A DNA stretch of 64,000 nucleotides from Prostheceraeus crozeri (taxonomy: Eukaryota > Platyhelminthes > Polycladida > Euryleptidae): contig CAJQUW010003163.1 of NCBI GenBank assembly GCA_907163375.1, positions 62,001-126,000 of the forward strand. The letters run 5' to 3'. A program made the translations under genes and the position numbers. The notes under the pieces were generated by a model, which was not told the DNA's origin, ran no database searches, and saw only the letters and a program-made list of their open reading frames with translations. Of the stretch, positions 785-56,013 are shown piece after piece; position 1 is the stretch's first letter; every line of letters begins with the position of its first letter.

Positions 785-1889
785 CACAGAATTAGGTTAA
801 GTAGCGTCTTCTCCGTACCTGCGAGGTCTTCGGCGCATCCTCAAAAATATCAATTAGCAACATTTATAAAAATGAAAAGTGTTCATTTGATGAAATTATT
901 CATTGGATTTCATTTAAATTCGATAGCTTCTCGTGACAGCCGTGCACCTCTCCGTCTCAAAATCAGAAGCTCAACCTCAGAATGAACAGTTTTGCAGCAC
1001 CTGCTCGAATCACAGCTGTTTTCTTCGAACAATTAGACTCACACGCTTGTGGTGTGTTCAGACGGAGCATTGATGTTCAGACACAGCGAAAGAGAATTGT
1101 ACGCGTGTGAGGCAGTAAGTGCACGCGCCCGCGCCAATATTGGCCTTCCCGATAGACATAATGCTTTGCCTTCTCCAATTTTTGCAATGAAATTCTCCAT
1201 AATTCTTGATCGAGGAGCGGTACCTAAATATAGAAAGGGAAGCGCAACCCAATTGTTCCTGGCTTCGTTTGTTCTCAGAGAGACCACTGCGTCAACAATA
1301 GCAAATGATTGACGTTCAGACGAGACTGTGATCAGATGATAAGCGTTCGCCAATGAGTGCAGAGTGACTGCATCTGACTCGAACACCCAGATTCGGTAGA
1401 ATTCCATGATTTGTTTTTACGTGATTGATGTGACGCTATGTTTATTACTGTAGATAAGCTTATAACCACGCCGTTCGATTGTCCGAAGGGAATATTATGC
1501 TGGACAGATGACAGTCGTAAGGCAAGGTAGGACCTGATATAAAATTGAAAGTACTCACAGAGAAAAAAATAAGAAATACACAAGACATTTTAATGAATCA
1601 AAATTTCAAACATCTGAGATGGCTGACCGGCCGTGAGAAACGCAAGGAACTCCTTCGTTGGCCTTGCCTCCTTTTTTTCGAGAAAATGTGGTCTGGACAG
1701 AGAGAGGATATCCAAGAAATTTTCAAAATCAAAGTATTCTCTCCCGAAGTATTTATGCCACAATAATTACAAGCATACTATAATATATATTGAAGTGATT
1801 TATTTAGACACCGCTAGCCAGTAAGAAATTGTATGTAGGTTTACTAGACAAGACCTGATGTAGTCAGTCATGCAGTGAGATAATTAGCT

Positions 1890-18500: not shown

Positions 18501-21500
18501 TCATTCTATGTTTACCTACTTTTTTTCATTTTTTATCCATAGATTTTCTGCTGTTTTATAATATCCATTTTCAATTTCCTTAATCTATGGTGACCATTGT
18601 CCTATTCTATTTCCACTACCATTATCTGCAGTCGGTACAGTATATTAGACGTCTGTTTTGAACGTGTATACGGCAGTTATACGACAGTGTTTGGAATCTA
18701 TGGTATTAGTATATTAACAGTAAAAATGAGTAGTGTAACAAGTCTTAAGATTTCCATTTTTACCAGATATTGGGCCAAAGCTGATCAATTATAATTTGTT
18801 GCCACGAGAAAGCTCCAATGAGTTCTTTTAAGAACTGATTAATCCAGTAGCATTGGTTACAATAGCATTGCATTTGCACACTTGCGGATTGGAGAACGCC
18901 ATCAGTCCTCATTAGGACTACTTCAATTAACAATTTAAATTAGTAAGCATTATATTCTATTATAAATGGCTAGTGAGATGATTTTCATCATCGTATGAGA
19001 ATTTATCAGTCAATACATGTGCATGTATGTACTTTCGTCTTTCATAAAGTAAAGTGGTTCAAAGACTTATTTGCTTTCCAGTCAAATTTCTTCTTCAATC
19101 CATAAAGTCTGGGTAATGATGACGGGAGAGCTAGATGCAAGTGGATTCACTGAGCAGTATCCAGCCAGCGGAGACAAACACGAAATGGTAATCCATAAAT
19201 TTCTCATTTTTGATAAAAATAATAGAGAATTGTAAACGTGTTCGTACACTTTTCTCAGTAGCCTCATTTTAAGTGGTTTTTAAGAAACCATTTGGTTTCA
19301 TAACTGTAGTTTGATTTTCGAAGAAGACCAAGGTTTATGCATGGGTTTTTCAAATAGTGTATTGTACATTAGTAGATAGCATGGATGATGTTACTATGCT
19401 TCCATCTAAGGGCTATGTAGCTCTACTCAAACCTGGGATAAGATGGCTATGGATGTCATGTCTGTTATCAATTAAACAACAGCCGGCAACTAAACACTAT
19501 CACGCCAGAGCAGTTTTGCCTGGTTATACGCAAGGGCTTATTAAGGGCAAATGAATTTTGTATTAGTATAATCAATTTCCCGCTATAATTTGTACATAAT
19601 TCAATTTCTTACTAGCCAAAGATAATTGACAATGAGTCAACCTGAATTTTCCATTGAAAATGGCAATTAATGTATTTGTATAAACTAAAGTTTACATGAA
19701 TTTTCGAGATGATTTCTAGGATAATATGCTAAATGTTGTATAGCACTAAAATCAAGCTATTCCTATATTCCTCCTATAAGGAGTAAGTGTTGTCTTAAAT
19801 ACGCCTTTGGATGCAGGTACTTCGATCTTAGGAGGTGCCAGGTTACAGTGATAATATACATTGTTATTCACAAAGTCCCAAATGAGTACTAGAAAGAGCA
19901 CGGAACTTGAGCATTAACTGCGACAAAGAAATGAGTCCCAGAATTTAGTACTCTTTGGGTTCGAAAATATCAGAACTCATTTTAGAGCTTATTTAATGAG
20001 TTGCATAGGACTAGCGCCTCCACTATCTCGAGACATGACATACGAACCCGCTGTATCAGATGCGCACATCCATGGAAGAACTGATTTGGCAATTAAACAC
20101 AAATGTATTTGGATCAATGGAACATGCACAAGAATCAATGCGCAGTCGGATAAGTGGATAAACGTTTGCATGTCGTAAAGCACTGTCGCGGAGGATGAAA
20201 AACGTTGGCAGGGCTCAAAACACTGTCGGTGAGGGTGAGGGTGTATATGATCCAAATTGATGTCTTAGGATCATTGAGAATATATCGATAAAATGTCACA
20301 GGTTGGTGTTTGTAGGATCATGTATTGTTTCATAGCAGCCACTTCGATATGCAGTAACACAGCAAACCGTCATTTCTGTGAACACTAGCCACCTGAGACA
20401 GAGGCGACCAGAGTGACGATTTCGGAGCAGGAACTATGAGTAACTGTGTTGAATATGATTGACGCCGTTTTCGGGGAACAAAAAGACTTATTCAGATCGT
20501 GTGCACCTTCATTACCAGCTGCATGCTGACTCACTGAATTTACTGATATTTCGCCATACTCAACCAGTATTTTAGTAGGCTACTTCTGTGAATTTCAGTT
20601 CGGTAATTCTAGTACTATTATGTCGAGAACTCAGATTCATTCTTAAATAGGACTTTATGATTTACAGTGTAGTTTCCAAGTTTCACATGAGTTAACAATC
20701 TTTATAGCCCTCGTACATCTCCCACTGTCTTTGTATGTGTGTTTCCACTTTCCACTGTATGTGGATTTTAAATAGTGTATTTGGTTTTCAATTTAAATTT
20801 GCCTTAATTTGGCAAAATAATAGGTTCATGAATTTTTGGTGATGACATGAACATCATAACAGCAGATTACGGAGTGTTAAAAAAAGTAACGCAAAATTTT
20901 CATCACACTCAGCAAACAACTGAATCGAGAACGACTGAAATAGAACTGATGGCATGGAAAGCTAACTACCATAGAAATGTTGCAACATCACCACCATTCA
21001 TGACTCATTAATTCTCCAAGGATGAAAAGCTGACACCCTAAATGATTTTTTAAAAGCCAACATTTTCAGGGTGTGATACGAAATTGTTGAAGAACACAAC
21101 CATCACGTCACATTAATAGTCCGGCAGCCAGAACGAGTTTCTGCAGGGAACGAGGCCGAAAGTGAGACTTTCACAGAATGATGTACACCCTACGAATCAG
21201 CCCGTCTGCCGAGTTCTCTCTAGTGTCTCTCTCTGTCAGACAGGATCAAAAGAAAAAAAAACATATATATATATCCAAGGATTGCAGGCATTGGTTTTTT
21301 AAAAAAAAAAATTTCTATGTTTTTCTCTGATGAAAATAAAAAACTACTAAGCCCAGAGTCATAGTTTTTGACATGGAATGTCCCGGCAGACGCGCAGATT
21401 CGTAGTAGGGTAGGATAGGGTATCACATCATAAGTCTCATTTTCATTTTCGGCCTCCCTGCCTGCACTCGTTCTGTGCGCTGAGGCCGAATAACATTATT

Positions 21501-24500: not shown

Positions 24501-27500
24501 TTCACAAGAAACTGAATCTTTTCATATAAAAATTTTCACTGTATGCAGATACGTTCTGGGGTCGACACTCTACCTATATATCCTTACTCTATGACTGAAG
24601 TGTGACTGTATAGGCTACTGAATTTTAATCAAGTAGAGATTATACAAATAAATATCAGAGTAAACTAAAAGTGACTATCAATATTCGCAAATCAATGCGC
24701 ACACTAATTAACAATTATTTGGCTTTCCCTTAAACATATTGTTCATTTACATATTGTTGAATTCCAAAATACACTACTCTGGTCACACATCTCTTTTTGA
24801 AACTTCTACGTTCAAAATTGAAGGATAAAAGATAATTTATCTGACGTATTTGCTCTCTACACTCTAAACCAGCACCTCCTAAATCACTCACTAAAGCCAG
24901 ACACTATTCGTAACTAATAAAAAAAAAAACCTAGCGCAAGCGCTTTAGCTTAGGAGCGGCGTAGGGTTATTGTTCTCTTCTCTATGTCATGTCAACATTC
25001 TCGCAACTCACTAAAATTCCTATGTGTTGGCGCTTTAGGATGCAGGTTCCTCGATTTTAATTATTTTAGGCTGGTTACAGTGTAAGATACAACACACGTG
25101 TTGGGAGACATTACATGAGCCTTCTACATGTATAAAGCCTGGATGAATTTCATCTGAGTCTGCATCTGATGACAGATTGATTCACAGCTTCTTCCTACAC
25201 TTCGTGTGGCTCATTCGATTATATTCCGTTGAGAGACAACTCGAGACTTGATATGCATAAAGAAACATGTACATGTAGAAGTATGAAGGTCTACATGAAA
25301 CCTGTAAGAGTAGGTGTCGCAAATAGCTTTTCAGATTGTGATAGAGACAATGATGGAATTACCAGTAACGTAAGGATTGTGAATGAATTCAATGAAATGG
25401 TCATTTAGCGGGAGGCATACACACATCTCAAGCAGTAAACAGTAGGCCTCACGCATGCACGCAGGTAGGCCACAACAAAACTACATAGTATATGACTACA
25501 TCTGAATTTGATACCTGGATTTTGTGGACATGCTGATACTTTCTGTTTTGGCGCAGTCGCTTCGCAGGAGTTTTTTACGACTAATATTTTTAAATTAAAT
25601 TCCAGATATTAAATATATATTTCAATATAGGCCTACACAATATTTCAATATCTTCAGAAACTGGCTGCGACAAGCTATCCTAAGACTGTGACCTTTTACC
25701 GTTAACTGTGAACTTCTTTTTCTATACTGTGTAATTGTTGTTGTATTTCATACGAATACATTGCTTTGCTTCAATAAAACAAGTGCTTCGAGGAATTAAA
25801 TTTCAGGATTTCAGGGATGTACTGGAGAAACTTCGCAAGCATGTCGTCAAATTTTATCTGAAAACTCAAAGAGAAAATGTTCGCTCACTTCATAATTGAT
25901 TTCAAATTATACAGCCTTTAAGACGGTTGTATACTTGAGATTTCACAAATATCGGGTTCTAAAGCTGCTTGTAGCTCTTTTAACACTTCAATTCACTTCA
26001 ATGAAAACTTGCAGACTTATTCAAAAGATCATGCTTTCATAGTGCGTGAAGAATTAATACTTCTTTTTGCACTGTATCGTACTCGAATTGCGCAATTCGA
26101 ATGTCAAAAGTTGCATGTCACTTTTACTGCGTTATAAGTAGTAAGATGTTAAATCTGCTTTATAGAAGAATGTGCATCATTCACCAATAATCAACCCTTT
26201 CTTTCAGTATACTAAGTCCGGTTAAAGTTTCTCCAAGAACTTTGAGCAAACTCCTGTTTTGATGATTTTTCAAGTAAAGCACGTTTCTGAATAGATTTCA
26301 CCAAATGTTTCAATTTTCGTCTCTGCAAGAGTTCATGCTGTCTTTTATTTGCTGTCAATGTGTGCTATTTTGTTCTGCAAACTCCATGCAAAATAATCAT
26401 TTTGTTCACGTGATGTCTGCGTTTCTCCCAGGGCAATTTAAAAAATGTCATTATACTTTCTTCGGCGATTATAATGTGACGCCGTAAGTGCACGTTTCCT
26501 CAGCATGGTACAATACTTAAGTGATTCGATAATTCAGGGTGCATGGTATTCAGATTTTCATTCTCAAACGTTCCTTTAATCCCTTATGAATTATCTTAAA
26601 CAAAGTACTATCAGCTCTCAGGAAGCAATACTTTTATCAGAGAACCTTCTATAGTCAATCCAAACTGCAAACTACAAACTGCGAAATTCAAACAAAGTAC
26701 GTGGTGGCGTCAATAAGTCCGTAGACTCGCAAAGATAAAAAACAACTGGCTTTTTCCACTTAAGGTATATTGAACCTATGGTAATGTAGGCAAAATAAAT
26801 CTGTATGGCAAATAAATCATGACATTGTGTATTTATAAAAATCACTTTTCTACCTAGGAACGATTATTGTCAATGCACAGTTTCCACCGTCTCACTAGCT
26901 CGTCGAAAGCCGTCGCAAACCAACCTTCTGGACGTCCGGAATAGAAGCTTGCAACGACCTCCTTCAGTTCTTCCTTGCTGGAAAACTTCTTACCCCTGAG
27001 GTGCTTTTTCTAATGTGAAAAGAGGAAAAAATCACTTGGGGCCAAGTCCGGATTGTAAGGCGGATGTGGGAGTTGGACGAATCCAGCACTTTGCAGGGAG
27101 GATTGAGCCCGTCTACTCGTGTGGATCGGAGCATTGTCATGCAACAGGTACAGATCCTGGCCAGAGGGCTTTCTTCTCAGTTTCCTGGATTCTGCAGCGA
27201 GCTGCGCGTAGTATTCTCCCGTTATCTTGGTGTTCTTGTCCGCGAAGTCCAACTTGATCACTCCTTTGTGGTCCCAGAAGATGGTCAGCATGAAGGCCCT
27301 TTTGTGTGAGGTTCCAGGCCTCAACTTCTGAGTCTTCATCCTCTGACGATGTTCTTCAGAAATCGATCACCAAGTTCTTCATGGAGCTCCACGTTTCTCG
27401 CGCAACATTCCAGCCTGCGCGAACACATTTCAGCACTGAGAAAATAAGGAACAAATCTGGAAGACAACTTCCTCAGACCAAGTTCTTTGAGCCTGTTGTG

Positions 27501-30500
27501 GACAGACCCGTAGCTGATGTTCAGCAGCTCCGACAGTCTATGCTTGGTTATTCGCCGCTCTTCCGTCACGATTGCTTTCAGCCTCACAAGAACTTGATCT
27601 CCGATTTCTGAGGGTCTGCCGGGTCGGTCTTCGTCTTCAATGGAAGTGCGGCCATTTCGGAATTCCTTGATCCACTTGTACACCGTTGACCGTGCTGGGG
27701 CTTCGTCCTGGTAGGCCTCATGCAGTTGCACCAGCATCTGTTCAGCTGGTATCCCTCGCAAATAAAGAAAGTGTATGACACTACGTTTTTCGACATCAGA
27801 AATCATTCTGCAACCAAGAAATGTGATGAGATAAGACAACAGATCTGTTGTTGCTTAAATGCCGCATGACAACTGCTCACTCAGTGATAATCGAAACATA
27901 CATGCACACGGCTTCCACTGACAGCAGTGATTTGATAAATGAACCATTATTTCATGTCGAGTCTACGGACTTATTGACGCCACCACGTAGGATACGATTT
28001 TATCGAAATATGCGATAGCATTTAGAAAAGATTTATGGAAACAAAGTTTTTGCAGGAATTGTCATTTACTCAAGAGGCAATTGGTTATACGCAGGATCAT
28101 TTTGATCATAGAGTAACTAGCCTATATTAGGTAGAGTGGTAACTCAGCATCTATTAAATCCCCAATGTGTATACACTTTCGATTTTATTAAATGAACTCA
28201 AGGGAGATACAGATGGTATATTGTCACCAAATGTGGGATATGCAAATTCTTGCAGTTTTTGCAGAAATTGCAACGAAATTGACGGATCGTGACAGTATTA
28301 TGCAGATGGAAATGATATTTTTCTACAGATCCCCCGTGTCATGACAGCCTTGGAGAGATATTTGTTGATTTAGCAACTCGATGACCTGCTATTGCTTTCA
28401 TGATCAACCTCAAGAGAATCTTCTTAAGCGAGATCATATCATTAGCAGCCTGTCACTGGTAGAGCAAAATAACAGAATCAAGGACAATGATTTCAATTAA
28501 CTTTAAAAGATGTTAATGGGTCCACATCACGATTCAGATTACAGAAATGAAACATGAATTTAGTGAATCACAAAATCATGCCGGTGAAAATTGAATTAAA
28601 AACTTGAAATTTCAGCCAAGAAAGCACGAATGATATCGCGACTTTTTCATGAAGACTTCCACTATAATACGGATCATGAAATTCTCTTGATAACCAGCTT
28701 GATTTCAGCTTAGTTGGGATGATTGTTAGCAAATATTAATACCTTTTGATATCCAACCTGCTATATACTACTTAAAACGGGGCGTCATCTCGGTAGTATA
28801 TAAATTGGCAAAAATTTAGCTTTTTCAAAACTGCTCAAATAATTTTTTGAACCACGTGAACGTTATCTCCGTAAAAACTGGATCTTTTCAACAAAAAAAT
28901 TTTCACTGTATACAGATACATTTTTGAGTCGACACTGTAGGCCTACCTACAGTTCCCTACTCTGTGATTTTGATATAGTCGTTTAAGCAGTTGTGTGGCC
29001 ATTCCGTTGGAATTTCGGTAACTGAAAAAACGCCTCTGGCATTATAATCCTCGGACAGCATTTTTTAAAATCATTTTTCCTATTTAATAATAAGTTAATT
29101 ATAATTTTCAATAAAATGAACTACGCTAACTATATTTCTGTTCTCAATTCGAGAAAACATCTTCAAAGGCAATATGTTAGGATCCATACTACATTTTTAA
29201 ACATACAGCATAGAGTCATGAGGTAAAGTCAATTAATAGGGGAGCAGTCTCGGAATGACCCAAACTTAAAATAATTAGAATGGTTGAATAAGCTGAAGGA
29301 ATGCTTGTTATGAATATCAGCCGCACGTCAAAGCCAGGATAAATAAACGCAGAGCAGCCGGCGGTGCAGTCCTTGAAGTTCAAATTTATGCCCGAATAGC
29401 AGCTTTTCTACAGACCTTGCTGGTCAAGTTACAGTCAATAACCTCTAAGAGGAAGTTAGGGATTCCGTGCCAAATTCTATGTTCCTGAGCCATGAGTACA
29501 GATACATGAAAAGACTCATGGTCGTCATCCTCAAAATGGCAAGAATGCCATCAACATGCCTTGCTTAGAAGTTAGAACTGCTAGTTCATACGATTCACCT
29601 GTCAACCCATGAACAGGTTACTGAGCGTGGGGACAAAACTCCATGCTAAGGCCATTACAGTGTTGTTAGAAAGTACCATCGAAAGTGAAAATACCTCCAG
29701 TCGTAAGTAACAGCAAGTTTTGAAAACATCCTTGCTGAAGAGAAGTATTTATACATTTGAGGTGTACACTTTTTTGCAACAAGTTCAATCGATGACCTCA
29801 TCAAGAGATATGTTAGCGAAAGGACTGGTGACATCGAAGCTAACAAGTTTCGAATTTTCAGTGACCTTATTTATACTTTACCTATTTAGCAGGTCGATAT
29901 TGCCTTCAAATGAGAAGTTGTTATGTTTTACCTTTGCAATGAATCATTCAGGTACTTCACTAGGTTGTATTTGGCCATCCCAAAGATTGCGACAATGGGT
30001 CGGAGAATGACATTCTCTTATTCTACTTTCTCGGAATCGTACAATTTGCTGCTGCTCGATCCATTCGTACACTATAAACTTTAGGGTACTAACTTAGAAC
30101 GAATCCGAAATTTCGTGCCAGTTAGCGCCTAGTTAGTGCCTTTGCAGTGCCTCTAGGCACCAGTAGGCGCCAGTAGGCGCCACTAGGCACTAATAGGCAC
30201 CAAACCAAATATTTGTTTATCCAATGAAATCGAAAGAAAATCAATGGGCACGAAGTCGGCACTATGAACTTCGTTCCTACTGGTGCCTTGTGTTGGTTAG
30301 AATTGATGCCTAAATTTCGTGCCCTAGAGTTTACAGTGTAGAGATAGAATGGAAGTATTGGGGTCAAGAACCCGATTGACTCACTCAAAAATATTATAAT
30401 TTACTGTGTTACTTGATAACAAGATGAATGATCCAATAAAGGATTATTTTGGTTACGATTGGAGTAAATTTGCTGATGTCCTCGAAGATAGCATTGATCT

Positions 30501-33500: not shown

Positions 33501-36500
33501 ACCTAGTGGTACAGCATAAGTTTCTGTCAGTGCGGTATGTACTGCCGGCTTGCCACATTCTTATTCTTTAAATGAATATTTCTATTCATAATTGAATATT
33601 TTAAGATTAATAAAAATACATTGCACGGTTACTTACTACCAACAAGTAAAATATTATGTCGGTGCAGCTATTCATTCAACAAAGATTTTTCGTTTAACGA
33701 CATTGCGAAATTTACACAGGCGGTCATTGGGAAGATCCGAGTCTTTAGTAAAGTGAATCATGCGCAGCAAAAGCTGAAATCTATTGCGCGACATGACATC
33801 CTCTGCAAGGTCATTTGAGAATATAATTATTTTGCTCCAATTGTCAGATATTTTTGGAAATTTCACTAGGCCCATGAAAAGAATCAGAACTTTTCAATTT
33901 CACTTTGATCTGTAGGTGAACAGTCATTTAGCCTTGAATTGCTTCCCACACATTCAGCATTCTCATTCGTCGATGAATAGCTTGCAAAAATCGATTGGTT
34001 GATATAGGTCGTTGAAAATGTCTGATTAGTCGCTGAAGAAAATGTCGAATTTTCGAAGTTTGTAGTTACCATCAATATCGACGAAGTCATCATCACAGAT
34101 ATTAGTTGATGAACAGATTGAACTTTCATCACCAGAGGAAGACCGCTCTTCCCACTCGAAAAAATAGAGTTCTCATCGCCTCTTTCCATAAGTGGGTCGA
34201 TTGAAAATGGTCTCTTGACTTCCAAAAATCAACAAATATTAGTTCTGAACTATTACGTGCGTATTGATCTTGTTCGACGCCATGTGTTTTATTCAAATAT
34301 GTTTAGTCGTTCACGAGGTGCCGTGTGAGCCACCGGCACGTCACAGCTAGGGATTCACCCTGAAGACCTACTATTTAGTTGTTCAGCTATTCATCAAAAG
34401 GATGACGTCGATAGATGACGTCAATTTACAGTCATTCTTTTGCCGTGGCATCGGAGAAACACCTCTGTTATCTTTCAATCGACTCTCATAGTCCGGCAGC
34501 CAGCACGAGTTTCTGCAGGGAACGAGGCCGAAAATTAGACTTTCACACAATGATGTACACCTCATAGTCCGGTAGCCAGACCGAGTTTCTTCTGCAAGGA
34601 GCGAGGCCAAAAATTAGACTTTCACAGAATGATGTACACCTCATAGTCCGGCAGCCAGCACGAGCTTCTGCAGGGAACGAGTCCGAAAATTAGACTTTCA
34701 CACAATGATGTACACCGGATAGTTTGGCAGCCAGACCGAGTTTCTGCAGGGAACGAGTCCGAAAATTAGACTTTCACACAATGATGTACACCGGATAGTT
34801 TGGCAGCCAGACCGAGTTTCTGCAGGGAGTGAGTCCGAAAATTAGACTTTCACAGAATGATGAAAAGCATATGCCGACTACGAATCTGCACATGTGCCGA
34901 GCTCTAGTTAGTTCCTCCTCGTCTGAAAGTCATTTTCTATCATGCTCATGAACATTGATCCATGGAGCTTAGCACATTGAGAGATCATGCTGGCCCAGTT
35001 TGTCGACATTGAACAATATTCTCACATGCATCTCCGATCAGAAGCATGATAATATCACACGCATGATTAGAATTGACCTGAAGACATGTCATTCCGAAAA
35101 TCGCAGCTCTAGATTTAATGCTTTTAAGTTGATAAGATAAAACATAGAAAATTTCATCAGTGGAAAAAAAACTGCAATCTACGTCCCATTGGATTTACAT
35201 GTGTTTTTCTTTGATCGCGTCTGACAAGAAGAGGAACTCACTAGAAGGCTCGTAGTAGGCATAGGGTGTACATCATTCTGTGAAAGTCTCATTGTCGGCC
35301 TCGTTCCCTGCAGAAACTCGTGCCGGCTACCGGACTATGAGGTGCACATCATTCTGTGAAAGTCTCATTGTCGGCCTCGTTCCCTGCAGAAACTCGCTCT
35401 AGCTGCCGGGCTATGTGGTGTACATTATTCTGTGAAAGTCTCATTGTCGGCCTCGTTCCCTGCAGAAACTCGTGCTGGCTGCCGGACTATGAGGTGTACA
35501 TCATTCTGTGAAAGTCTCATTGTCGGCCTCGTTCCCTGCAGAAACTCGTGCTGGCTGCCGGACTATGAGGTGTACATCATTCTGTGAAAGTCTCACTTTC
35601 GGCCTCGTTCCCTGCAGAAGCTCGTTCTGCCTGCCGGACTATGAGGTGTACATCATTCTGTGAAGTCTCACTTTCGGCCTCGTTCCCTGTAGAAACTCGT
35701 GCTGCCTGCCGGACTATGAGGTGTACATCATTCTGTGAAGTCTCACTGTCGGCCTCGTTCCTCGCAGAAACTCGTTCTGCCTGCCGGACTATGAGGTGTA
35801 CATCATTCTGTGAAAGTCTCACTGTCGGCCTCGTTCCCTGCAGAAACTCGTGCTGGCTGCCGGACTATGAGGTGTACATCATTCTGTGAAAGTCTCACTT
35901 TCGGCCTCGTTCCCTGCAGAAACTCGTGCTGCCTGCCGGACTATGAGGTGTACATCATTCTGTGAAAGTCTCACTTTCGGCCTCGTTCCGTGCAGAAACT
36001 CGTGTTGCCTGCCGGACTATGAGGTGTACATCATTCTGTGAAAGTCTCACTGTCGGCCTCGTTCCCTGCAGAAACTCGTGCTGGCTGCCGGACTATGAGG
36101 TGTACATCATTCTGTGAAAGTCTCACTGTCGGCCTCGTTCCCTGCAGAAACTCGTGCTGGCTGCCGGACTATGAGGTGTACATCATTCTGTGAAAGTCTC
36201 ATTGTCGGCCTCGTTCCCTGCACAAACTCGTGCTGGCTGCCGGACTATGAGGTGTACATCATTCTGTGAAAGTCTCACTTTCGGACTCGTTCCCTGCAGA
36301 AACTCGTGCTGGCTGCCGGACTATGAGGTGTACATCATTCTGTGAAAGTCTCATTGTCGGCCTCGTTCCCTGCAGAAACTCGTGCTGCCTGCCGGACTAT
36401 GAGGTGCACATCATTCTGTGAAAGTCTCATTGTCGGCCTCGTTCCCTGCACAAACTCGTTCTGGCTGCCGGACTATGAGGTGTACATCATTCTGTGAAAG

Positions 36501-39500
36501 TCTCATTGTCGGCCTCGTTCCATGCACAAACTCGTGCTGGCTGCCGGACTATGAGGTGTACATCATTCTGTGAAAGTCTCATTGTCGGCCTCGTTCCCTG
36601 CAGAAACTCGTGCTGGCTGCCGGACTATGAGGTGTACATCATTCTGTGAAAGTCTCATTGTCGGCCTCGTTCCCTGCAGAAACTCGTGCTGGCTGCCGGA
36701 CTATGAGGTGCACATCATTCTGTGAAAGTCTCATTGTCGGCCTCGTTCCCTGCAGAAACTCGTGCTGGCTGCCGGACTATGAGGTGTACATCATTCTGTG
36801 AAAGTCTCATTGTCGGCCTCGTTCCATGCACAAACTCGTGCTGGCTGCCGGACTATGAGGTGTGCATCATTCTGTGAAAGTCTCATTGTCGGCCTCGTTC
36901 CCTGCAGAAACTCGTGCTGGCTGCCGGACTATGAGGTGTACATCGTTCTGTGAAAGTCTCACTTTCGGCCTCGCTCCCTGCAGAAACTCGTGCTGGCTGC
37001 CGGACTATGAGGTGTACATCATTCTGTGAAAGTCTCACTTTCGGCCTCGTTCCGTGCAGAAACTCGTGCTGGCTGCCGGACTATGAGGTGTACATCATTC
37101 TGTGAAAGTCTCATTGTCGGCCTCGTTACCTGCAGAAACTCGTGCTGCCTGCCGGACTATGAGGTGCACATCATTCTGTGAAAGTCTCATTGTCGGCCTC
37201 GTTCCGTGCACAAACTCGTTCTGGCTGCCGGACTATGAGGTGTACATCATTCTGTGAAAGTCTCATTGTCGGTCTCGTTCCATGCACAAACTCGTGCTGG
37301 CTGCCGGACTATGAGGTGTTCATCATTCTGTGAAAGTCTCATTGTCGGCCTCGTTCCCTGCAGAAACTCGTGCTGGCTGCCGGACTATGAGGTGTACATC
37401 ATTCTGTGAAAGTCTCATTGTCGGCCTCGTTCCGTGCAGAAACTCGTGCTGGCTGCCGGACTATGAGGTGTACATCATTCTGTGAAAGTCTCATTGTCGG
37501 CCTCGTTCCCTGCAGAAACTCGTGCTGGCTGCCGGACTATGAGGTGCACATCATTCTGTGAAAGTCTCATTGTCGGTCTCGTTCCATGCACAAACTCGTG
37601 CTGGCTGCCGGACTATGAGGTGTGCATCATTCTGTGAAAGTCTCATTGTCGGCCTCGTTCCCTGCAGAAACTCGTGCTGCCTGCCGGACTATGAGGTGTA
37701 CATCATTCTGTGAAAGTCTCATTGTCGGCCTCGTTCCCTGCAGAAACTCGTGCTGGCTGCCGGACTATGAGGTGTACATCATTCTGTGAAAGTCTCACTT
37801 TCGGACTCGTTCCCTGCAGAAACTCGTGCTGGCTGCCGGACTATGAGGTGTACATCATTCTGTGAAAGTCTCATTGTCGGCCTCGTTCCCTGCAGAAACT
37901 CGTGCTGGCTGCCGGACTATGAGGTGCACATCATTCTGTGAAAGTCTCATTGTCGGCCTCGTTCCCTGCACAAACTCGTGCTGGCTGCCGGACTATGAGG
38001 TGTACATCATTCTGTGAAAGTCTCATTGTCGGCCTCGTTCCATGCACAAACTCGTGCTGGCTGCCGGACTATGAGGTGTGCATCATTCTGTGAAAGTCTC
38101 ATTGTCGGCCTCGTTCCCTGCAGAAACTCGTGCTGGCTGCCGGACTATGAGGTGTACATCATTCTGTGAAAGTCTCATTGTCGGCCTCGTTCCGTGCAGA
38201 AACTCGTGCTGGCTGCCGGACTATGAGGTGTACATCATTCTGTGAAAGTCTCATTGTCGGCCTCGTTCCGTGCAGAAACTCGTGCTGCCTGCCGGACTAT
38301 GAGATGTACATCATTCTGTGAAAGTCTCATTGTCGGCCTCGTTCCCTGCAGAAACTCGTGCTGGCTGCCGGACTATGAGGTGTACATCATTCTGTGAAAG
38401 TCTCACTTTCGGCCTCGTTCCCTGCAGAAACTCGTGCTGGCTGCCGGACTATGAGGTGTACATCATTCTGTGAAAGTCTCATTTCCGGCCTTGTTCCCTG
38501 CAGAAACTCGTTCTGGCTGCCGGACCATGAGCTGTACATCATTCTGTGAAAGTCTCATTGTCGGCCCCGTTCCCTGCAGAAACTCGTGCTGGCTGCCGGA
38601 ATATGAGGTGTACATCATTCTGTGAAAGTCTCATTGTCGGCCTCGTTCCTGCAGAAACTCGTGCTGGCTGCCGTACGATGAGGTGTATATCATTCTGTGA
38701 AAGTCTCATTGTCGGCCTCGTTCCCTGCAGAAACTCGTGCTGGCTGCCGGACTATGAGGTGTACATCATTCTGTGAAAGTCTCATTGTCGGCCTCGTTCC
38801 CTGCAGAAACTCGCTCTAGCTGCCGGACTATGAGGTGTACATCGTTCTGTGAAAGTCTCACTTTCGGCCTCGTTCCGTGCAGAAACTCGTGCTGCCTGCC
38901 GGACTATGAGGTGTACATCATTCTGTGAAAGTCTCATTGTCGGCCTCGTTCCCTGCAGAAACTCGTGCTGCCTGCCGGACTATGAGGTGTACATCATTCT
39001 GTGAAAGTCTCACTTTCGGCCTCGTTCCCTGCAGAAACTCGTGCTGGCTGCCGGACTATGAGGTGTACATCATTCTGTGAAAGTCTCACTTTCGGCCTCG
39101 TTCCCTGCAGAAACTCGTGCTGGCTGCCGGACTATGAGGTGTCCATCATTCTGTGAAAGTCTCATTTTCGGTCTCGCTCCCTGCAGAAACTCGTGCTGGC
39201 TGCCGGACTATGAGGTGTACATCATTCTGTGAAAGTCTCACTTTCGGCCTCGTTCCGTGCAGAAACTCGTGCTGCTTGCCGGACTATGAGGTGTACATCA
39301 TTCTGTGAAAGTCTCATTGTCGGCCTCGTTCCGTGCAGAAACTCGTGCTGGCTGCCGGACTATGAGATGTACATCATTCTGTGAAAGTCCCATTGTCGGC
39401 CTCGTTCCGTGCAGAAACTCGTGCTGCCTGCCGGACTATGAGATGTACATCATTCTGTGAAAGTCTCATTGTCGGTCTCGTTCCATGCACAAACTCGTGC

Positions 39501-42500
39501 TGGCTGCCGGACTATGAGGTGTGCATCATTCTGTGAAAGTCTCTTTGTCGGCCTCGTTCCCTGCAGAAACTCGTGCTGGCTGCCGGACTATGAGGTGTAC
39601 ATCATTCTGTGAAAGTCTCATTGTCGGCCTCGTTCCCTGCAGAAACTCGTGCTGGCTGCCGGACTATGAGGTGCACATCATTCTGTGAAAGTCTCATTGT
39701 CGGCCTCGTTCCCTGCAGAAACTCGTGCTGGCTGCCGGACTATGAGGTGTACATCATTCTGTGAAAGTCTCATTGTCGGCCTCGTTCCCTGCAGAAACTA
39801 GTGCTGGCTGCCGGACTATGAGGTGTACATCATTCTGTGAAAGTCTCATTGTCGGCCTCGTTCCCTGCACAAACTCGTTCTGGCTGCCGGACTATGAGGT
39901 GTACATCATTCTGTGAAAGTCTCATTGTCGGTCTCGTTCCATGCACAAACTCGTGCTGGCTGCCGGACTATGAGGTGTGCATCATTCTGTGAAAGTCTCT
40001 TTGTCGGCCTCGTTCCGTGCAGAAACTCGTGCTGGCTGCCGGACTATGAGATGTACATCATTCTGTGAAAGTCTCACTTTCGGACTCGTTCCCTGCAGAA
40101 ACTCGTGCTGGCTGCCGGACTATGAGGTGTACATCATTCTGTGAAAGTCTCATTGTCGGCCTCGTTCCCTGCAGAAACTCGTGCTGGCTGCCGGACTATG
40201 AGGTGTACATCATTCTGTGAAAGTCTCATTGTCGGCCTCGTTCCCTGCACAAACTCGTTCTGGCTGCCGGACTATGAGGTGTACATCATTCTGTGAAAGT
40301 CTCATTGTCGGTCTCGTTCCATGCACAAACTCGTGCTGGCTGCCGGACTATGAGGTGTGCATCATTCTGTGAAAGTCTCATTGTCGGCCTCGTTCCGTGC
40401 AGAAACTCGTGCTGGCTGCCGGACTATGAGATGTACATCATTCTGTGAAAGTCTCATTGTCGGCCTCGTTCCGTGCAGAAACTCGTGCTGCCTGCCGGAC
40501 TATGAGATGTACATCATTCTGTGAAAGTCTCATTGTCGGCCTCGTTCCCTGCAGAAACTCGTGCTGGCTGCCGGACTATGAGGTGTACATCATTCTGTGA
40601 AAGTCTCACTTTCGGCCTCGTTCCCTGCAGAAACTCGTTCTGGCTGCCGGACTATGAGGTGTACATCATTCTGTGAAAGTCTCATTGTCGGCCTCGTTCC
40701 CTGCAGAAACTCATGCTGACTGCCGGACTGTGAGGTGTACATCATTCTGTGAAAGTCTGATTGTCGGCCTCGTTTCCTGCAGAAACTCGTGCTGGCTGCC
40801 GGACTATGATGTGTACATCATTCTGTGAAAGTCTGATTGTCGGCCTCGTTCCCTGCACAAACTCGTGCTGGCTGCCGGACTATGAGGTGTACATCATTCT
40901 GTGAAAGTCTCATTGTCGGCCTCGTTCCCTGCAGAAACTCGTGCTGGCTGCCGGACTATGAGGTGTACATCATTCTGTGAAAGTCTCTTTGTCGGCCTCG
41001 TTCCGTGCAGAAACTCGTGCTGCTTGCCGGACTATGAGGTGTACATCATTCTGTGAAAGTCTCATTGTCGGCCTCGTTCCCTGCAGAAACTCGTGCTAGC
41101 TGCCGGACTATGAGGTGTACATCATTCTGTGAAAGTCTCACTTTCGGCCTCGTTCCGTGCAGAAACTCGTGCTGCCTGCCGGACTATGAGGTGTACATCA
41201 TTCTGTGAAAGTCTCACTTTTGGGCCTCGTTCCCTGCAGAAACTCGTGCTGGCTGCCGGACTATGAGGTGTCCATCATTCTGTGAAAGTCTCATTTTCGG
41301 TCTCGCTCCCTGCAGAAACTCGTGCTGGCTGCCGGACTATGAGGTGTACATCATTCTGTGAAAGTCTCACTTTCGGCCTCGTTCCGTGCAGAAACTCGTG
41401 CTGCCTGCCGGACTATGAGGTGTACATCATTCTGTGAAAGTCTCATTGTCGGCCTCGTTCCCTGCACAAACTCGTGCTGGCTGCCGGACTATGAGGTGTA
41501 CATCATTCTGTGAAAGTCTCATTGTCGGTCTCGTTCCATGCACAAACTCGTGCTGGCTGCCGGACTATGAGGTGTGCATCATTCTGTGAAAGTCTCTTTG
41601 TCGGCCTCGTTCCCTGCAGAAACTCGTGCTGGCTGCCGGACTATGAGGTGTACATCATTCTGTGAAAGTCTCACTTTCGGCCTCGTTCCGTGCAGAAACT
41701 CGTGCTGCCTGCCGGACTATGAGGTGTACATCATTCTGTGAAAGTCTCATTGTCGGCCTCGTTCCGTGCAGAAACTCGTGCTGGCTGCCGGACTATGAGG
41801 TGTACATCATTCTGTGAAAGTCTCATTGTCGGCCTCGTTCCCTGCAGAATCTCGTGCTGGCTGCCGGACTATGAGGTGTACATCATTCTGTGAAAGTCTC
41901 ACTTTCGGACTCGTTCCCTGCAGAAACTCGTGCTGGCTGCCGGACTATGAGGTGTACATCATTCTGTGAAAGTCTCATTGTCGGCCTCGCTCCCTGCAGA
42001 AACTCGTGCTGGCTGCCGGACTATGAGGTGTACATCATTCTGTGAAAGTCTCATTGTCGGCCTCGTTCCCTGCAGAAACTCGCTCTAGCTGCCGGACTAT
42101 GAGGTGTACATCGTTCTGTGAAAGTCTCATTGTCGGCCTCGTTCCCTGCAGAAACTCGCTCTAGCTGCCGGACTATGAGGTGCACATCATTCTGTGAAAG
42201 TCTCACTTTCGGCCTCGCTCCCTGCAGAAACTCGCTCTAGCTGCCGGACTAATAGATTCAAGTTTCAAAACAAATGAGTTAATTCGAAGTCGTTCTAATC
42301 ACACACTCGAACTTTCATTGTTATCATCTTTGTCTAGATCTAATGCGTGCAAGTGATGAGTCTTACGTCCGTCAGTTAATGATAAGAAATTTTCTATGCA
42401 TGTGTTGAAAAGTTGATATTAAAATAGCCCTCAGAGAGCATGAGTATTACTTTACAGTCCCTGGTAATCTTTTCAGTCTTTGCGGTCAATTGCGGTCAGT

Positions 42501-45500
42501 TCATCAGCTTTTGTGCTGCAAAGTGCATTTTCGTCATGATTTTATTTTCCCTATGCATTATTTTGATTGTAGTTATGTTGAATATCCTTGACAAGTCCCC
42601 AAATCTAGCATTTGAAACATAGAATTACAATGTGATCAACTGAATCATATCGACCTAATCCAGAATCAAAAAATTGGCAAACGATTTATTATTAACACAA
42701 TTATCAACATCACCGGTAATTTGGTCTTCTGTCAGATAGCTGACAATATTCGACAAAATTGACTCCTCGATCTTGGCATATTATCGACCTTTCTGTTATT
42801 TTCTTCATCATTTCTGCGGTTCTTTTCATTTTTGAGTCGCTATTTGGTTAATTAATAGAATGTGACAAATATTGGACACTATAAAGTATAATTCTGATCA
42901 AATTTAAATTCAAAAAGTCTTATTTTGTAGCCTATGTCTATTCCTAGTCCATGGATAGAAATATTGTGCATTATGTAAGCAAGTATGGCCATAGACTTTT
43001 TAATATCATAGTTTGGCCGACAAATATGACGCTGAGATATCTAACACATTCCAGATGGAGATTCATGCATAGAAATAAATTACCTTCACTCGATTAAAAA
43101 GTCCTTTTCAGTACTCTGAGCGATATCATTGTCTCGATTGCTGCGCTCTAGAAATAAATTAACTTCACTCGATTAAAAAGTCCTTTTCAGTACTCTGAGC
43201 GATATCATTGTCTCGATTGCTGCGCTCTAGAAATAAATTAACTTCACTCGATTAAAAAGTCCTTTTCAGTACTCTGAGCGATATCATTGTCTCGATCACT
43301 GCGCTCTCTTGACAACGATATCGCTCCTCGTGCTGAAAAGTTGACTTTTTAATCTTCGTGAAAATAATTAGAATGCATTGCATTGCATTACATAATAAAT
43401 TCCTCAGAAAGTGATAGGCATTGTCCAGGAACACACTGATTGGGTCACGGGCAGTCATCAGTTCCATTTAACTGTTGATTCAGTAAATATCCCATACCTG
43501 CATTCTGATACGCGTATCGTCATGTCTGTAATTGAGTAATGAACCGTCGACACAAGAACTCATTCTCTGCAGGCACGTGCACTACACCCCTTCATTTTAG
43601 TATATACCAATGTTTCTGAAAACTACTCTGTGATTTGCCACTTATCAACTGTTTTGATTGATTAATGACTAAATGTTTTTTTTAGAGACCATTGACGGCT
43701 TTCATGGGCTTTGTTCCTGTGAAAGAACTGCATCGGAGGTTACTGAACTTAGAGAAACGCAACGACAAATTATTTAGACGGTTTTGTCAGCAACAGAAGC
43801 TGAATTCCATGGATGTTACAGGTAATTTGATTTATCTGATATATTTTCTTCACTTATCATTAGTTTTTATATTTTCTGAACAGATTTTTCAATTTAGCCA
43901 ACTGCGAGTATACTCGTTAGTGGTAGTAAATTCATTTGTGAAGTCAAACAGGTGCAGGTATTTTAGCGATAGCTATCGTAGCAAGTTGAATGTAAAATTC
44001 TCAGGTCTATCCACAGAGCTGAGAATTGGAGAATTGTTGAACGCAATTTACGCCATCCAAATTTTAGGCGCTTAGTAGAGGCTTTACACATTACGTTCGA
44101 TACAAAGCAATTTTGATGAGATGGGGTGCCTTGGGCGAGAGTTAGGACATATGTAATTGAATCTGTAGACCTTCCTGTTCTTTTTTGTTTTTTTTTTTGT
44201 TGTTCCTGTGTTTTATTCCCTTTTATATTGTTGATTATTAGTATCATTTTTTTTTATTTTATTTTTTTTTCATATTTATCTTCATTATTTTTTGTGTTTA
44301 TTTATCTATTGATTTATTGTTGTGTATGTTTTTTCATATTTGATTAAGTTTATTTAAATATGGTTTTGTAAATATTGTCATAGTTGTACATTGTTTATTC
44401 CGTTTCTTTCTGCATTTTGGCATTGGCATTTTATCTTTCATACTGTGGACAATGCCAGTGTGTCTTTGTGTATTAATTCAGATAGTGAATGCCAGTATCA
44501 ATATCTATTCCATACGATTCACACCGGTGGACTCTCTGTATATGATAATGTTTACGATCTTTTGACATGGGCAGCCATTTATTCAGAATTTTATGCACCT
44601 GATGAAGGCTTTCGGGCGAAAACTTTGTGCGATACTTCTATAAGATTTATATTCGAGTTCCGCATTTTCTCTATCCACAGAATTAGATTGTTTAAACGTA
44701 TCACTCTGCTAGAAGTGCAAACTGATTAAAAAATGGCACATGTAGGAGCTTACTAAGTAAACAAAAAGGTATTCTAATGCCTTGCAGGGATAGGAAAATA
44801 GTCCTGCGTCGCTTTCGGATTGCTGTGAATTCCTTCTAAATGCTCCGATCGCCACAATTCTTCAGATTCGAAAAATTCAGATCATTGTGCAAAAGTTTTC
44901 TCGATAATGTTGGGCCGTCATTAGGCCTCTCATTATTAAAAAAAGTTAGCAGGTGCACAAAAATAAGTTCACAAACTTCTGTGTAGAGCTTGATATCGTC
45001 TGTGTCTCTTAGTTGTGTGATCGTGTTGATAACAGTCACTGAAACTTCGCACAATGTGACGTGTTTAGTGTTGAACTGGCTGCTCATTGTTCGATTGCTA
45101 TGGTATTTAGTCAGGAGATTGTGCCATTTCATTTACGTTGCATGTTCCAATGTTTCCCTTCTAGTCAAACAGAAGAAGAGACGAATTGGCTAATTCTGTG
45201 GGTCTATCAACTGCTTACAGCTACTGTAAAATAACACGCGCATCGGACTTCCAAGTATAGTACTGACATCATTCCTGCCCTTTGTGCTGATGACTGTCCT
45301 TTGAAGTTTCATAAATGCAGCAATGAATGCTTCTAAATCTGCTTGCTGGGTGATAAAGATGCTGCTACTGGAGCTGCTATGAGTGGAAATAGCTTGTTGG
45401 AAAGACACGTTATTCATCATCAACATATTTTATATTGGCGAATCTGGCAGCGCAATGACAATAGAGGTGAATGAGGCCATTCCTTGGCGGTCGTAGACAC

Positions 45501-48500
45501 TGCGTTTCGACCTACAAGGACTCTTCAGTAAACCTTGGAATGGCCCAAGCAAGCTTGAAATATCTAGAATGGCTTTATGACTGTCGGCTGCTCGGCAAAG
45601 CCAGGATGCACAGACGTAAAGCATCCTGTTGTACAGTCCTTCAGCTTGTTCAACTGTTCTAGATATTTCAAGCCATTCCAAGCCGTACTGACGAGCCCTT
45701 GTACGGCAAAACGCAGCGTCTACAGCTACCAAGGAATTATTGTGCATAAATTGTTCAAGTCTGAGGTTCAAGTCTCATATCTTTCTAAAATTCGATGCAT
45801 TTCTGATGTCCAGGCAACTTATTTTCAACAGCTATGTCACATGAGATTTTTCTAAATTATGTTTCTAAAAGTTTCTTCATTTCTATGTTATTTTTTTCAG
45901 ACGCTGTGATTAGATCCCATGAACGTTTGCCAGCGTATGGGAAGCCGTGGAAAGCTGGAGAATTGTCGGACTCATCCTCTGAAGATTCTTCGGAGGAGTA
46001 TTCAACGATTGACGAAAGCTTGTTACACTTTTATCCCTCTTACGTGCACGAGCGAGTAAGTCATTCTTTGCAAATGATCATGATTCATGATACTAAACCT
46101 TAGCTTTTATAATAATGATATCAGGCACTAAAATATCGATATTTCAGTGATTATTTAGTATTCTCAGCAAATACCTCATATTAGTGTCTAGGTGAGAGCA
46201 ATTTTGGTGTACTATTAAACTTATCTTACTATTTTAAAACTTAAAAGTTTTTCCGTAACATTTGAATTTCCCATCCTCTATTCGCTGTCTATGGTACAAT
46301 GGGTGGAACAGGAGTATTCAGGAGCCCATACCTTTCCGACGTCTTGTGTTATTTTCAATCCAAAGTATAAATCATGCGCCGTTGCTAAATTATCGTTGAG
46401 GGCAATATAATAACGTCGCGATGTTTTACTCAAATATTGACCACAAATGTAGCAGAACTGGTTCTTATCATGTTTGCAAGAGCGCCCTGACATGATGCAG
46501 TCAAGTTCTTTTGCAGTAGCTACTCTGCTGTTGTGTTCCGCGCCTAATCCTCAAGTTTTGCATGCACCGATCAAGAGTGCTCCCATGACATCAACTCGTA
46601 GAGCCAAACCGTTCGTTTCCATGTGTCAAAGTTTACTACAAAGTACAGTGAGTGAGATAACTTAGAGATACGAAAAACAGTTTCAAACTTCTACAAAATT
46701 GACGACCTGGAAAGTGGTTCACTATGTTGATATGAATACATATCAACACAATATTAGTAATTCCACTGCATTTTATGAATTTTGTTAACTAAGAGAGCTT
46801 TGTATACACCTTTATTGAATACAGCACGATATGCTGATCGGCCCTAAATTTGCGTGTTTTTATTATTTTCGATATGACAAAACTTCAAAATAAGAATTGA
46901 AGAATCCAAAATAATAAAAAATAAGTATCATTTTCGTAATCTACGACCTCAAATATGGTACTAACAGTTGTTTTTCTTTTGCTAACAGAAAAAAAGTTGA
47001 AAATGCACAAACAGTGTAATGATATCAGGCACTAAAATATCGATATTTCAGCGATTATTTAGCATTCTCAGCTAATACCGCATATTAGTGTATTATATTA
47101 GTGTACATCATTTGGTGTACAGTTAAACTTATTTTACTATTTTAAAACTTAAAAGTTTTTCTGCAACATTTGAAATTCCCATCTATTCGATGTCTATGGT
47201 ACAATGAGTGGTCATGATATGATTAATAGAACCGCACTCATATTGAAAATTGTGGCGGTTCATTGAAGGCTTTCACACAATGTGACAAGATCGGTCGAGC
47301 GGTTAAGCTTCACGAGGCCTACAGCAAAAATGCGGCAGGGAGCGAATCACTGCCCGTATGGATGCGTCACATAGTCATTGCCTGTCAGTGTAAGGAATGG
47401 AAGAAATTTGCTTTGGAGGTGGATGTCGTAGCGCAAGCAATAAAGGTTTTTGCCGCTTCCTTGAAATGCATGAAACCTTCGTGACAATTCGATTTTTCAT
47501 GGACTTGTTTATAATGCAGGTAATTCAAGATAAGGCATGGATAAAGGCATCGTTAATTGACTTGCCCGGGGGAAATTCCTTTTTGTTCCTTTTTTTCTTT
47601 TTCGTTTTGTCCCCCGTGGACGTATTTATATCAAACAAATCACAGACAAACTGGCATTGACAAACGATGGTTTAAATATGAAAAATGACTTCTCAACAAT
47701 TCGTGTTTCCTTTTCATGGATGGACAATGGATTCTGATGTAATTTGCTTCAGCCATTCTTGTGTGCATATGGTTGCTGAGGCGATAGATGATATCGACAT
47801 CAAAGTCGTCTATAGAAAAAGGACGATCAGGATGACGTAGGACAATATGATCTGAGATGGCACTCGCACTGTCTAGATTATCAATGCTTCTACGATGCTC
47901 AGCAAAACAGACGCCGAAGGACGTGCTTCAACAACCCTATTCATACTAGGGTGGCTGAAGCGAATTGCATCAGGATCCATCGTCCACCCATGAATAGGAA
48001 ACACGGACTGATCGGAGGTCATTTTTGATATATAAATCATCGCTTGCCAATGCTAGATTGTCCATGAATAAGTCCTCGGCGGACGAAGCGTCGGGTGGTT
48101 TAGACATTGTATTTTTTTGTCATATAAATCAGAAACATCGCCATTACAAGGGAGAATTTTCAATTTTCGCTTAAAAGGAAAACAACAAAAAAATGAATAA
48201 GGCAGTCTATTTCAAAGAGACGTCATAGATTTCAATGTTAGGTCGCACATGTCCGCGATAATGCATGCAAACTAGTGAATACCAAGTGATAGACCCATCA
48301 GAGAAGATTTTCAAACGCATGACAATGATGAGGATGTGAGTTCAGCAAATGCAGATGTATACGCTCAGCAAAAGTCATACATTATCCATCGTAGAAGTGA
48401 GCGTGTGAGGAGGTGTCTTGCGTGGATGAATGACTACGTGTGTTGACAGCATCTTGTATGTTATTTTAGTTCTTAAGACCTGTGGGGCGTGTAGGTGCTT

Positions 48501-55302: not shown

Positions 55303-55881
55303 AGAAAAACAACGCATGTAGCAGATTCAACTTTAATAGCGCGTGTGCCCCCCTCTAGCTCCAATACATTCAGTAATCCGAGATGGCATGGATTCACAAA
55401 GTTTCTGAATGAAGGATGTTTCAAGGAGAAGCCACTGCTCTGTCAGTCTTTCAGAGAGAATCTTCAGGGACACTGGTGGAAGTGAATAGCGGTCTCTCAC
55501 TCGCCGCCCAAGCTCGTCCCATACTTGTTCAATGGGTGATAAGTCAGGTGAGCGTGCAGGTCAGTCAAGGGTTTGAATGTTCAATCTCCTAACAGTGGCA
55601 ATGACAGCCGAGGAGCGATGTGGTCTTGCGTTGTCGTTTTGGAAGACGAGATCCTCCACCCTGGCCACTGGGGCAACAACAGGAAGCACAATTTCATTGA
55701 GATACCTCTCTCCAGTCAACGTGCCTTTGATGATGACTGCTGTCGTTCGTCCGCCATGCCAAATGCCACCCCACAGCATAAGACTTCCACCACCATATCT
55801 GTCGTGTTCTTTAATACAGCATGGGGCAAAGTGTTCACCTGGAAGACGATGCACTCTGACACGACCGTCATCGAAATCCAG
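55303..55881 (-). pseudogene. Tc1-like transposase, C-terminal half, twin of 11405-12443
   Basis: Nearly identical by eye to 11404-11982 (shared DWPARSP-type end, MLWGGIWHGG, VVAPV.RVED). Catalytic Asp in VFQNDNARPH and the downstream region are present, but frames are broken after LNIQTLD by a stop (tcagtcaaggg). The copy ends abruptly at 55881, where a T-run begins; the first catalytic Asp and the DNA-binding half are gone. Confidence 0.88.
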
Positions 55882-56013
55882 ATTTTTTTGTTGTTTTTTC
55901 CATGTTTTTTTTATAATCCAATTGTGATTTTCAACTCAAGAGTAATTTAATTCAAGTAATTTAACAACAATGAAATTAAATATACGGTAGATCAAATTGC
56001 CATGCAAAAGATG

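Follow-up and report, generated by a model that had tools for sequence, protein, structure and literature searches.

Drosophila FB and sea urchin TU are foldback elements whose inverted arms are made of tandem repeats. The closest precedent for the element reported here is Tetris of Drosophila virilis, a non-autonomous, foldback-like transposon with tandem repeats in both inverted arms, for which no autonomous partner was found, according to the passages of its report drawn on here (PMC4079207). The number of repeats in Tetris varies, also between allelic copies (3 versus 4), and satellite-like arrays reach 66 copies; the same passages name the foldbacks of fly and sea urchin (PMC4079207). In Xenopus, the Xstir / Xmix and miDNA4 elements are treated in the review passages cited as arrays derived from miniature inverted-repeat transposable elements (MITEs) (PMC12628747, PMC9659126). 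Here we describe an element in a 64,000-nucleotide stretch of the polyclad flatworm Prostheceraeus crozeri (assembly GCA_907163375.1, contig CAJQUW010003163.1, positions 62,001 to 126,000, forward strand; hereafter the window). It is, with high probability, an expanded MITE, with a satellite growing out of the transposon end.

Tandem arrays in the window were delimited with Tandem Repeats Finder. About five copies of a 76-bp unit on the left and 92 on the right stand in inverted orientation around a core, as the original prediction had concluded from the sequence. It placed the element at 34487..42252 with a core of 401 bp; the structure stood, with limits adjusted to 34485-42251 and the core to 402 bp. 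Read inward from the terminus (TAGTCC, beginning at 34489), the left-arm unit runs TAGTCCGGCAGCC...ACACCTCA, and the junctions between left-arm units read TCA twice and GGA twice. The terminal 13-mer is exact in 63 of the 92 right-arm units and has at most one mismatch in 87. Allowing one mismatch, the terminal 15-mer TAGTCCGGCAGCCAG occurs 89 times in the window (88 times in this element and once at 21117), with no occurrence in 100 shuffles. Inverted arm segments (I1-I8) are 82-94% complementary, and left-arm segments compared in reverse with outer right-arm segments are 85-92% identical, one 28-bp stretch being 100% identical. As single-stranded DNA, the left arm together with the core and the first two units of the right arm gives a folding z of -16 (20 shuffles).

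The window's own assembly (2.05 Gb, 14,165 contigs) was then searched with a unit-free query, a full-length symmetric core. The best 40 of 7,738 first-look candidates were scored and all 40 matched. Thirty loci were returned, one of which (L009) is the same place as a locus described below (L004); 28 of the 29 others (L010-L038) could be measured. All 28 carry one inverted unit per arm and are 717-733 bp long. The ordinary element, of ~727 bp, has a ~187-bp centre flanked on both sides by a 197-bp inner inverted repeat and a 73-bp outer part, with terminal inverted repeats of ~270 bp. Elements begin with TAGTCCGGCAGCC and finish with its reverse complement, with 0-1 mismatch per measured end. 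Matching 3-bp flanks, that is, target-site duplications, were present in 24 of the 28 single-unit elements (all except L017, L027, L031 and L035) and in all six measurable expanded elements (TGC, TTC, AAT, AAT, AGG and TGA); L030, in which the right unit was not found, the window element (L001) and L006 were omitted from this tally. The family is therefore a MITE, a non-autonomous cut-and-paste transposon with terminal inverted repeats and a target duplication of constant length, the latter being absent at the window locus. The window core is the MITE core minus most of the left inner repeat. This loss explains why the arm inversion extends only ~50-60 bp into each side of the core (counted from 34860, positions 39-61 with 369-393 and 11-24 with 391-404), of which about 50 bp had been noted at the outset.

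Copy number was estimated with an inner-edge string, which has 3,953 exact occurrences in the genome (reversed control, 0). In L010-L038 it is exact at 22 of 58 edges, giving ~10,400 edges and ~5,200 elements. By hand count, 22 of the first 100 places form 11 facing pairs ~440-590 bp apart, giving ~18,000 edges and ~9,000 elements. We thus estimate roughly 5,000-9,000 copies. The first ten unpaired inner edges examined all belonged to single-unit or truncated copies and none to an array, so expanded forms are a minority.

PIF/Harbinger elements make a 3-bp TWA target duplication, whereas TTA or TAA accounts for only 4 of the 30 matched duplications here; CACTA elements have CACTA/CACTG termini, and the present ends read TAGTCC...GGACTA. 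The papers listed in a search on 3-bp duplications gave no diagnosis of superfamily. An autonomous partner was sought with three exclusion patterns (end, mid-unit or inner repeat, each followed by non-MITE bases). Of the 63, 112 and 20 matches to these, 63, 100 and 20 were inspected by eye, and no second family sharing the end was seen; each pattern passes an estimated 18-42% of unrelated sequences, so the search had low power and a partner may still exist. Most of the matches inspected were derivatives with deletions or duplications, or odd strings occurring once. They included a repeated string at two places in contig C10423. Another, in contigs C1908 and C11563, was rejected as a partner, its match being 16 bp within another duplicated segment.

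The origin of the array unit can be read from its junctions. In single-unit copies the inner end of the unit is mostly ...GTACACC-CTATGCC; in arrays ACACC is followed by TCA and then by the terminus TAGTCC. The 76-bp unit thus consists of the outer 73 bp found in ordinary MITE copies plus TCA, and it starts at the transposon terminus. In the right arm of the window element, 90 of the 91 junctions found by pattern end in TCA (82 CCTCA, 6 TCTCA, 1 CATCA and 1 GCTCA, the other being CCACA); three further pattern matches on the right-arm strand were unrelated. Among the expanded loci described below (L002-L008 and L039), 74 of 83 junction matches are CCTCA, the others including TGA once in L003 and twice in L007. 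The assembly contains 8,954 exact copies of the junction string (reversed control, 0), and the window has 46 among 97 units; extrapolation from this rate gives an estimate of ~19,000 units genome-wide, or ~1.4 Mb. Because the TCA junction is shared, the arrays likely go back to one founding duplication of the terminus together with TCA. The three added bases equal the target duplication in length, and TCA would accordingly represent the target duplication of the founder.

Expanded elements were collected with window positions 35000-35400 as the query, which includes nearly two units and so favours expanded copies. It gave 71 matches from the best 40 of 3,749 first-look candidates. The core adjoins inverted 76-bp units in all seven other loci listed by this search (L002-L008), on both sides in six of them, whose arms contain 4/1, 13/7, 10/3, 3/1, 6/13 and 2/1 units. 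In L006 at least 22 units lie on one side, and there is no right arm within 8 kb of the core (L039, which is the opposite side of the L006 core and overlaps L006). The original prediction had made the foldback character depend on the core being found with inverted units elsewhere, and had proposed looking for elements of the same core with varying arm lengths; both were found. The family is foldback-like in that a minority of its members carry inverted arms of tandem repeats in variable number, from 2 to >20 units.

A further sample of arrays was taken from the first 100 exact-junction places by contig order, corresponding to 15 arrays on C14-C336; arrays without an exact junction are missed by this sampling. 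Five are two-armed (1/2, 12/11, 1/2, 2/4 and 5/6 units) and four are one-armed with part of the core (14, 17, 10 and 3 units). The remaining six have no core in the fetched stretch and contain at least 25 (to a contig end), 89, 7, 3, 9 and at least 58 units, the array of nine having one opposite fragment 190 bp away. The 89-unit array, on C15, is the longest of the sample and has flank on both sides; that of at least 58 units, on C336, runs beyond the fetched stretch. Arm lengths are correlated in 11 two-armed elements (Spearman 0.63, p = 0.04), with ratios of 1.1-4; six of these were picked for their likeness to the window element and five came from the sample, the window element and the C8054 element described below being omitted. 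Against these ratios the 5/92 arms of the window element are an outlier. When 24 array stretches were compared, the longest multi-unit segment shared at ≥98.5% was 226 bp, and thus none of them is a recent copy of another. With 92, 89 and at least 150 units, the largest arrays resemble satellite DNA in being long and homogeneous.

The array of at least 150 units lies on contig C9425, the one other full-length match of the window's right flank (best 40 candidates scored). On that contig, 150 unit matches follow the identical end, GGACTA-ATAGATTC, and extend to within 8 bases of the contig start, with one break at 773-1332. The two flanks differ by 29 substitutions and 26 gap columns in 905 (~3% substitutions) and, farther out, by 78 substitutions and 190 gap columns in 2,990. 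From this comparison C9425 probably carries a second allele of the window locus, a recent duplicate being possible. The outermost unit retains three diagnostic bases in both. Compared by position, the 30 outermost units of the two arrays differ by 4.50 mismatches, and random pairs by 4.66 (standard deviation 0.32), so that unit order matches no more closely than expected by chance. When 92 window units were compared with 104 C9425 units lying beyond position 4500 and passing the length filter, own-array nearest-neighbour weights were 0.74 and 0.70. Among arrays at different loci, the nearest-neighbour weight within the own array was 0.70 for the window (85 of the 92 right-arm units passed the filter; 0.21 expected from array size) and 0.88 for C15 (0.22 expected). 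Adjacent window units were more alike than in 2000 of 2000 permutations.

These results suggest a pathway of four steps. The junction seen in the arrays points to a single ancestor in which the terminal 73 bp of one arm and the flanking TCA were duplicated in tandem; every unit therefore carries a transposon end. Expanded elements with few to ~20 units per arm would afterwards have spread by transposition, in keeping with their diverse target duplications. At some loci, here in the right arm, the array may then have grown in place by unequal exchange or replication slippage, a step that we infer from the local similarity of units and from the second contig, C9425. Such growth would change array length and unit order, with the outermost unit keeping its diagnostic bases. 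Loss of the core could finally have left the satellite-like arrays that carry no recognised transposon trace. The proposal that a satellite is being born from a transposon end fits the long arrays of C15 and C336, with no core in the fetched stretch, and the different array length on C9425.

Several observations weigh against this pathway. The window element has no 3-bp target duplication, with TCA flanking its left end and ATA its right, and could have arisen by recombination between two elements. Units of the window array differ among themselves by a mean of 4.06 mismatches, and are as close or closer to those of L053+ (3.38), L051 (3.83) and L006 (4.05); within the arrays of C336 and C14, units are as far from one another (7.65 and 7.40) as from those of other arrays. 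Any higher-order pattern across the window units is weak: the maximum z is 3.43, short of the permutation 95% level of 3.71, and the signs at lags 1 and 45 lose significance once corrected over lags. One of 21 offsets between window and C9425 units (offset 10) is closer than random, at 3.77 mismatches, so some shared order is possible. Target duplications cannot separate growth in place before the last transposition from growth after it. Finally, as no transposase was found, the mobility of the family is deduced from its copies.

If the arms of the window locus came from two elements through ectopic recombination, both the missing target duplication and the 5:92 asymmetry would be explained without one-sided growth. 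This chimera would account for the differing flanking trinucleotides, given that the flanks match in 30 of the 34 other elements measured, and it is favoured by the GGA junction of the left arm, unseen in L002-L008 and L039, and by another dispersed repeat that ends 11 bp from the left terminus. However, a perfect flank match is missing from 4 of the 28 single-unit elements too, so that its loss is not rare, and the core is continuous into both arms. We therefore consider a chimera unlikely, though well worth keeping in mind. The original prediction spoke of one foldback-type element; its two arms need not come from one insertion, since the flanking TCA and ATA differ.

Far less probable is the capture of a pre-existing satellite by a MITE, or its recombination into one, by which the array would be older than the transposon arms. 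The six of 15 sampled arrays without a core in the fetched stretch could be read in this way, but the unit corresponds to the outer 73 bp of an ordinary MITE with TCA added and starts at the terminus, and ordinary copies are without an array (28 of 28 measured, and 10 of 10 sampled by inner edge). Equally improbable is that repeat collapse or a mis-join in the assembly made the asymmetry. Arrays do reach contig ends elsewhere (C14 and C9425), and the first ~4.5 kb of C9425, which may be poorly polished, is irregular in unit length. Against this, there are 59 distinct unit sequences among the 92 of the window's right arm, the array end and flank are common to two contigs, and the 89 units of C15 have flank on both sides. 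The expanded MITE whose end is giving rise to a satellite thus remains our preferred explanation.

The same terminus has expanded independently a second time, with another unit. In the C8054 element (L076, C8054:55700-60700), the right arm at 877-4083 consists of ~83 units, most of them 37 or 39 bp long, that derive from roughly the final 36 bp of the MITE terminus. The array is one-sided, the left arm being a truncated single unit, and the outer array end is without GGACTA. One junction-spanning string, the single variant searched, had all 30 of its exact genome matches in that contig. Shorter duplications near the terminus were read in L077 (37 bp x 2), itself an expanded arm, and in L078 (36 bp x 2). 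Those of C8054, L077 and L078 all begin within ~4 bp of the terminus.

It is conceivable, if rather doubtful, that the transposon terminus is a hotspot that nucleates satellites, with cuts at the end provoking tandem re-copying of the last 36-76 bp. Each new unit would bring another cuttable end, and the array would thereby feed its own growth. The idea arises because the main unit reaches exactly 3 bp, one target-duplication length, past the end, and because these three other duplications of the family also start close to the terminus. At least two duplication-like strings, in C10385 and C4378, seen as matched strings only, count against it: they start away from the terminus and resemble a 17-bp slip between two ACGAG copies.

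Table 1. Features of the window element and its surroundings (window coordinates)
Feature	Position	Strand	Description
Left arm	34485..34862	-	4.9 copies, period 76 (Tandem Repeats Finder)
Core	34863-35264		402 bp between the arms
Left inner inverted repeat, remnant	34870..34917	+	Corresponds to positions 2-49 of the inner repeat (197 bp), the remainder being largely missing
MITE centre, diverged	34929..35080	.	Centre 4-57 and 104-187 match core 67-120 and 137-218
Right inner inverted repeat (MITE)	35081..35264	-	Inner repeat 34-197 and 1-15 match core 384-219 and 402-388
Right arm	35265..42251	+	92.0 copies, period 76, 95% matches (Tandem Repeats Finder); ends GGACTA at 42251
Right flank	42252..46112	+	Also present on contig C9425, there next to the same array end and an array of at least 150 units
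Left flank, different dispersed repeat	33511..34477	+	Seven other contigs contain a match that stops near this same point, 11 bp short of the foldback terminus; outside the element
Single-unit, one-armed copy of the same MITE family	21116..21409	+	Just upstream of the Ion_trans open reading frame 21414-21758

The + strand open reading frame (ORF) at 21414-21758 matches the Pfam family Ion_trans. A second ORF, 12907-13767, resembles part of the same channel by eye, with 0 Pfam families and no PDB match. The original prediction had set the element inside an intron; this was not established, no exon beyond 42 kb being tied to the gene of the ion-channel ORF. In the right flank, ~140 bp outward of the array, positions 42391-43060 match dozens of dispersed places, mostly at 77-83% identity, and belong to another repeat family. 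Three tandem copies of a 79-bp unit follow at 43070-43307; C9425 has no tandem repeat at this place, and the alignment there fits a single copy. Two weak unit-like fragments at 49144-49895 are possibly an old MITE copy. Minus-strand ORFs at 3361-4005, 8141-8584, 11425-12156 and 27336-27854 match the transposase families DDE_Tnp_1_7 (piggyBac-like), HTH_Tnp_Tc3_2, DDE_3 and HTH_48 of Mos1, and ORFs 2986-3360, 7732-8310, 27010-27366 and 55561-55935 look, by eye, like continuations or relatives of these neighbouring ORFs. Elsewhere in the assembly, L054 (C6227:14436-18782, on a 100.7-kb contig) contains mitochondrial COX2 and COX1 on the same strand, in the invertebrate mitochondrial code; by eye, the COX1 ORF has a long N-terminal extension.

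How satellite DNA begins is an open question, since the intermediates are rarely seen together. This one genome holds, side by side, single-unit transposons, arms of few units and one exploded arm still attached to its core, together with a probable second allele of other length, arrays without a recognised core and an independent second explosion with another unit. With such a series, both the mutation mechanism and the sequence of steps can be tested directly.

FB and TU share inverted tandem-repeat arms with the present element and are set apart by much shorter repeats and longer target duplications. Kinship with them is not supported: a target duplication of 3 bp, not 8-10 bp, argues against a Mutator-type foldback such as FB or Tetris, and the outer flanking domain of Tetris is absent. 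In the passages of its report used here, Tetris resembles the present family in having variable tandem repeats in its inverted arms and long arrays of the same unit (PMC4079207). It differs in that its repeats, of ~220 bp, lie inside the outer flanking domain, and in its target duplications of 8-10 bp (PMC4079207). In the present family the 76-bp unit is the terminus itself, copies of the ordinary single-unit form number in the thousands, and there are arrays of 92 and of at least 150 units. The arms of the Galileo F subfamily of Drosophila mojavensis are also lengthened by direct tandem repeats, unequally between arms, but these are 2-3 internal repeats of ~210 bp in a P superfamily element, and no satellite is mentioned in the passages seen (PMC3573991). 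For Xstir / Xmix, the table of one review gives the terminal inverted repeat as the array source, which is comparable to the present case, whereas the other, in the part consulted, states that the repeats may derive from internal MITE sequence (PMC12628747, PMC9659126). Like the family here, miDNA4 of Xenopus tropicalis is a MITE with a variable-length array giving satellite DNA, but as described in those reviews its array is internal and proposed to be captured, and it belongs to Tc1/mariner (PMC12628747, PMC9659126). A satellite unit made of the transposon terminus itself was not found in the titles and abstract openings among the matches listed for foldback and MITE satellites (bivalves) and for terminus duplication, which is not proof of absence. 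The route from transposon to satellite is thus already known, and this case shows its steps unusually clearly: the series is complete, the unit is the transposon end itself, the length difference is probably allelic, and the same end has exploded a second time independently.

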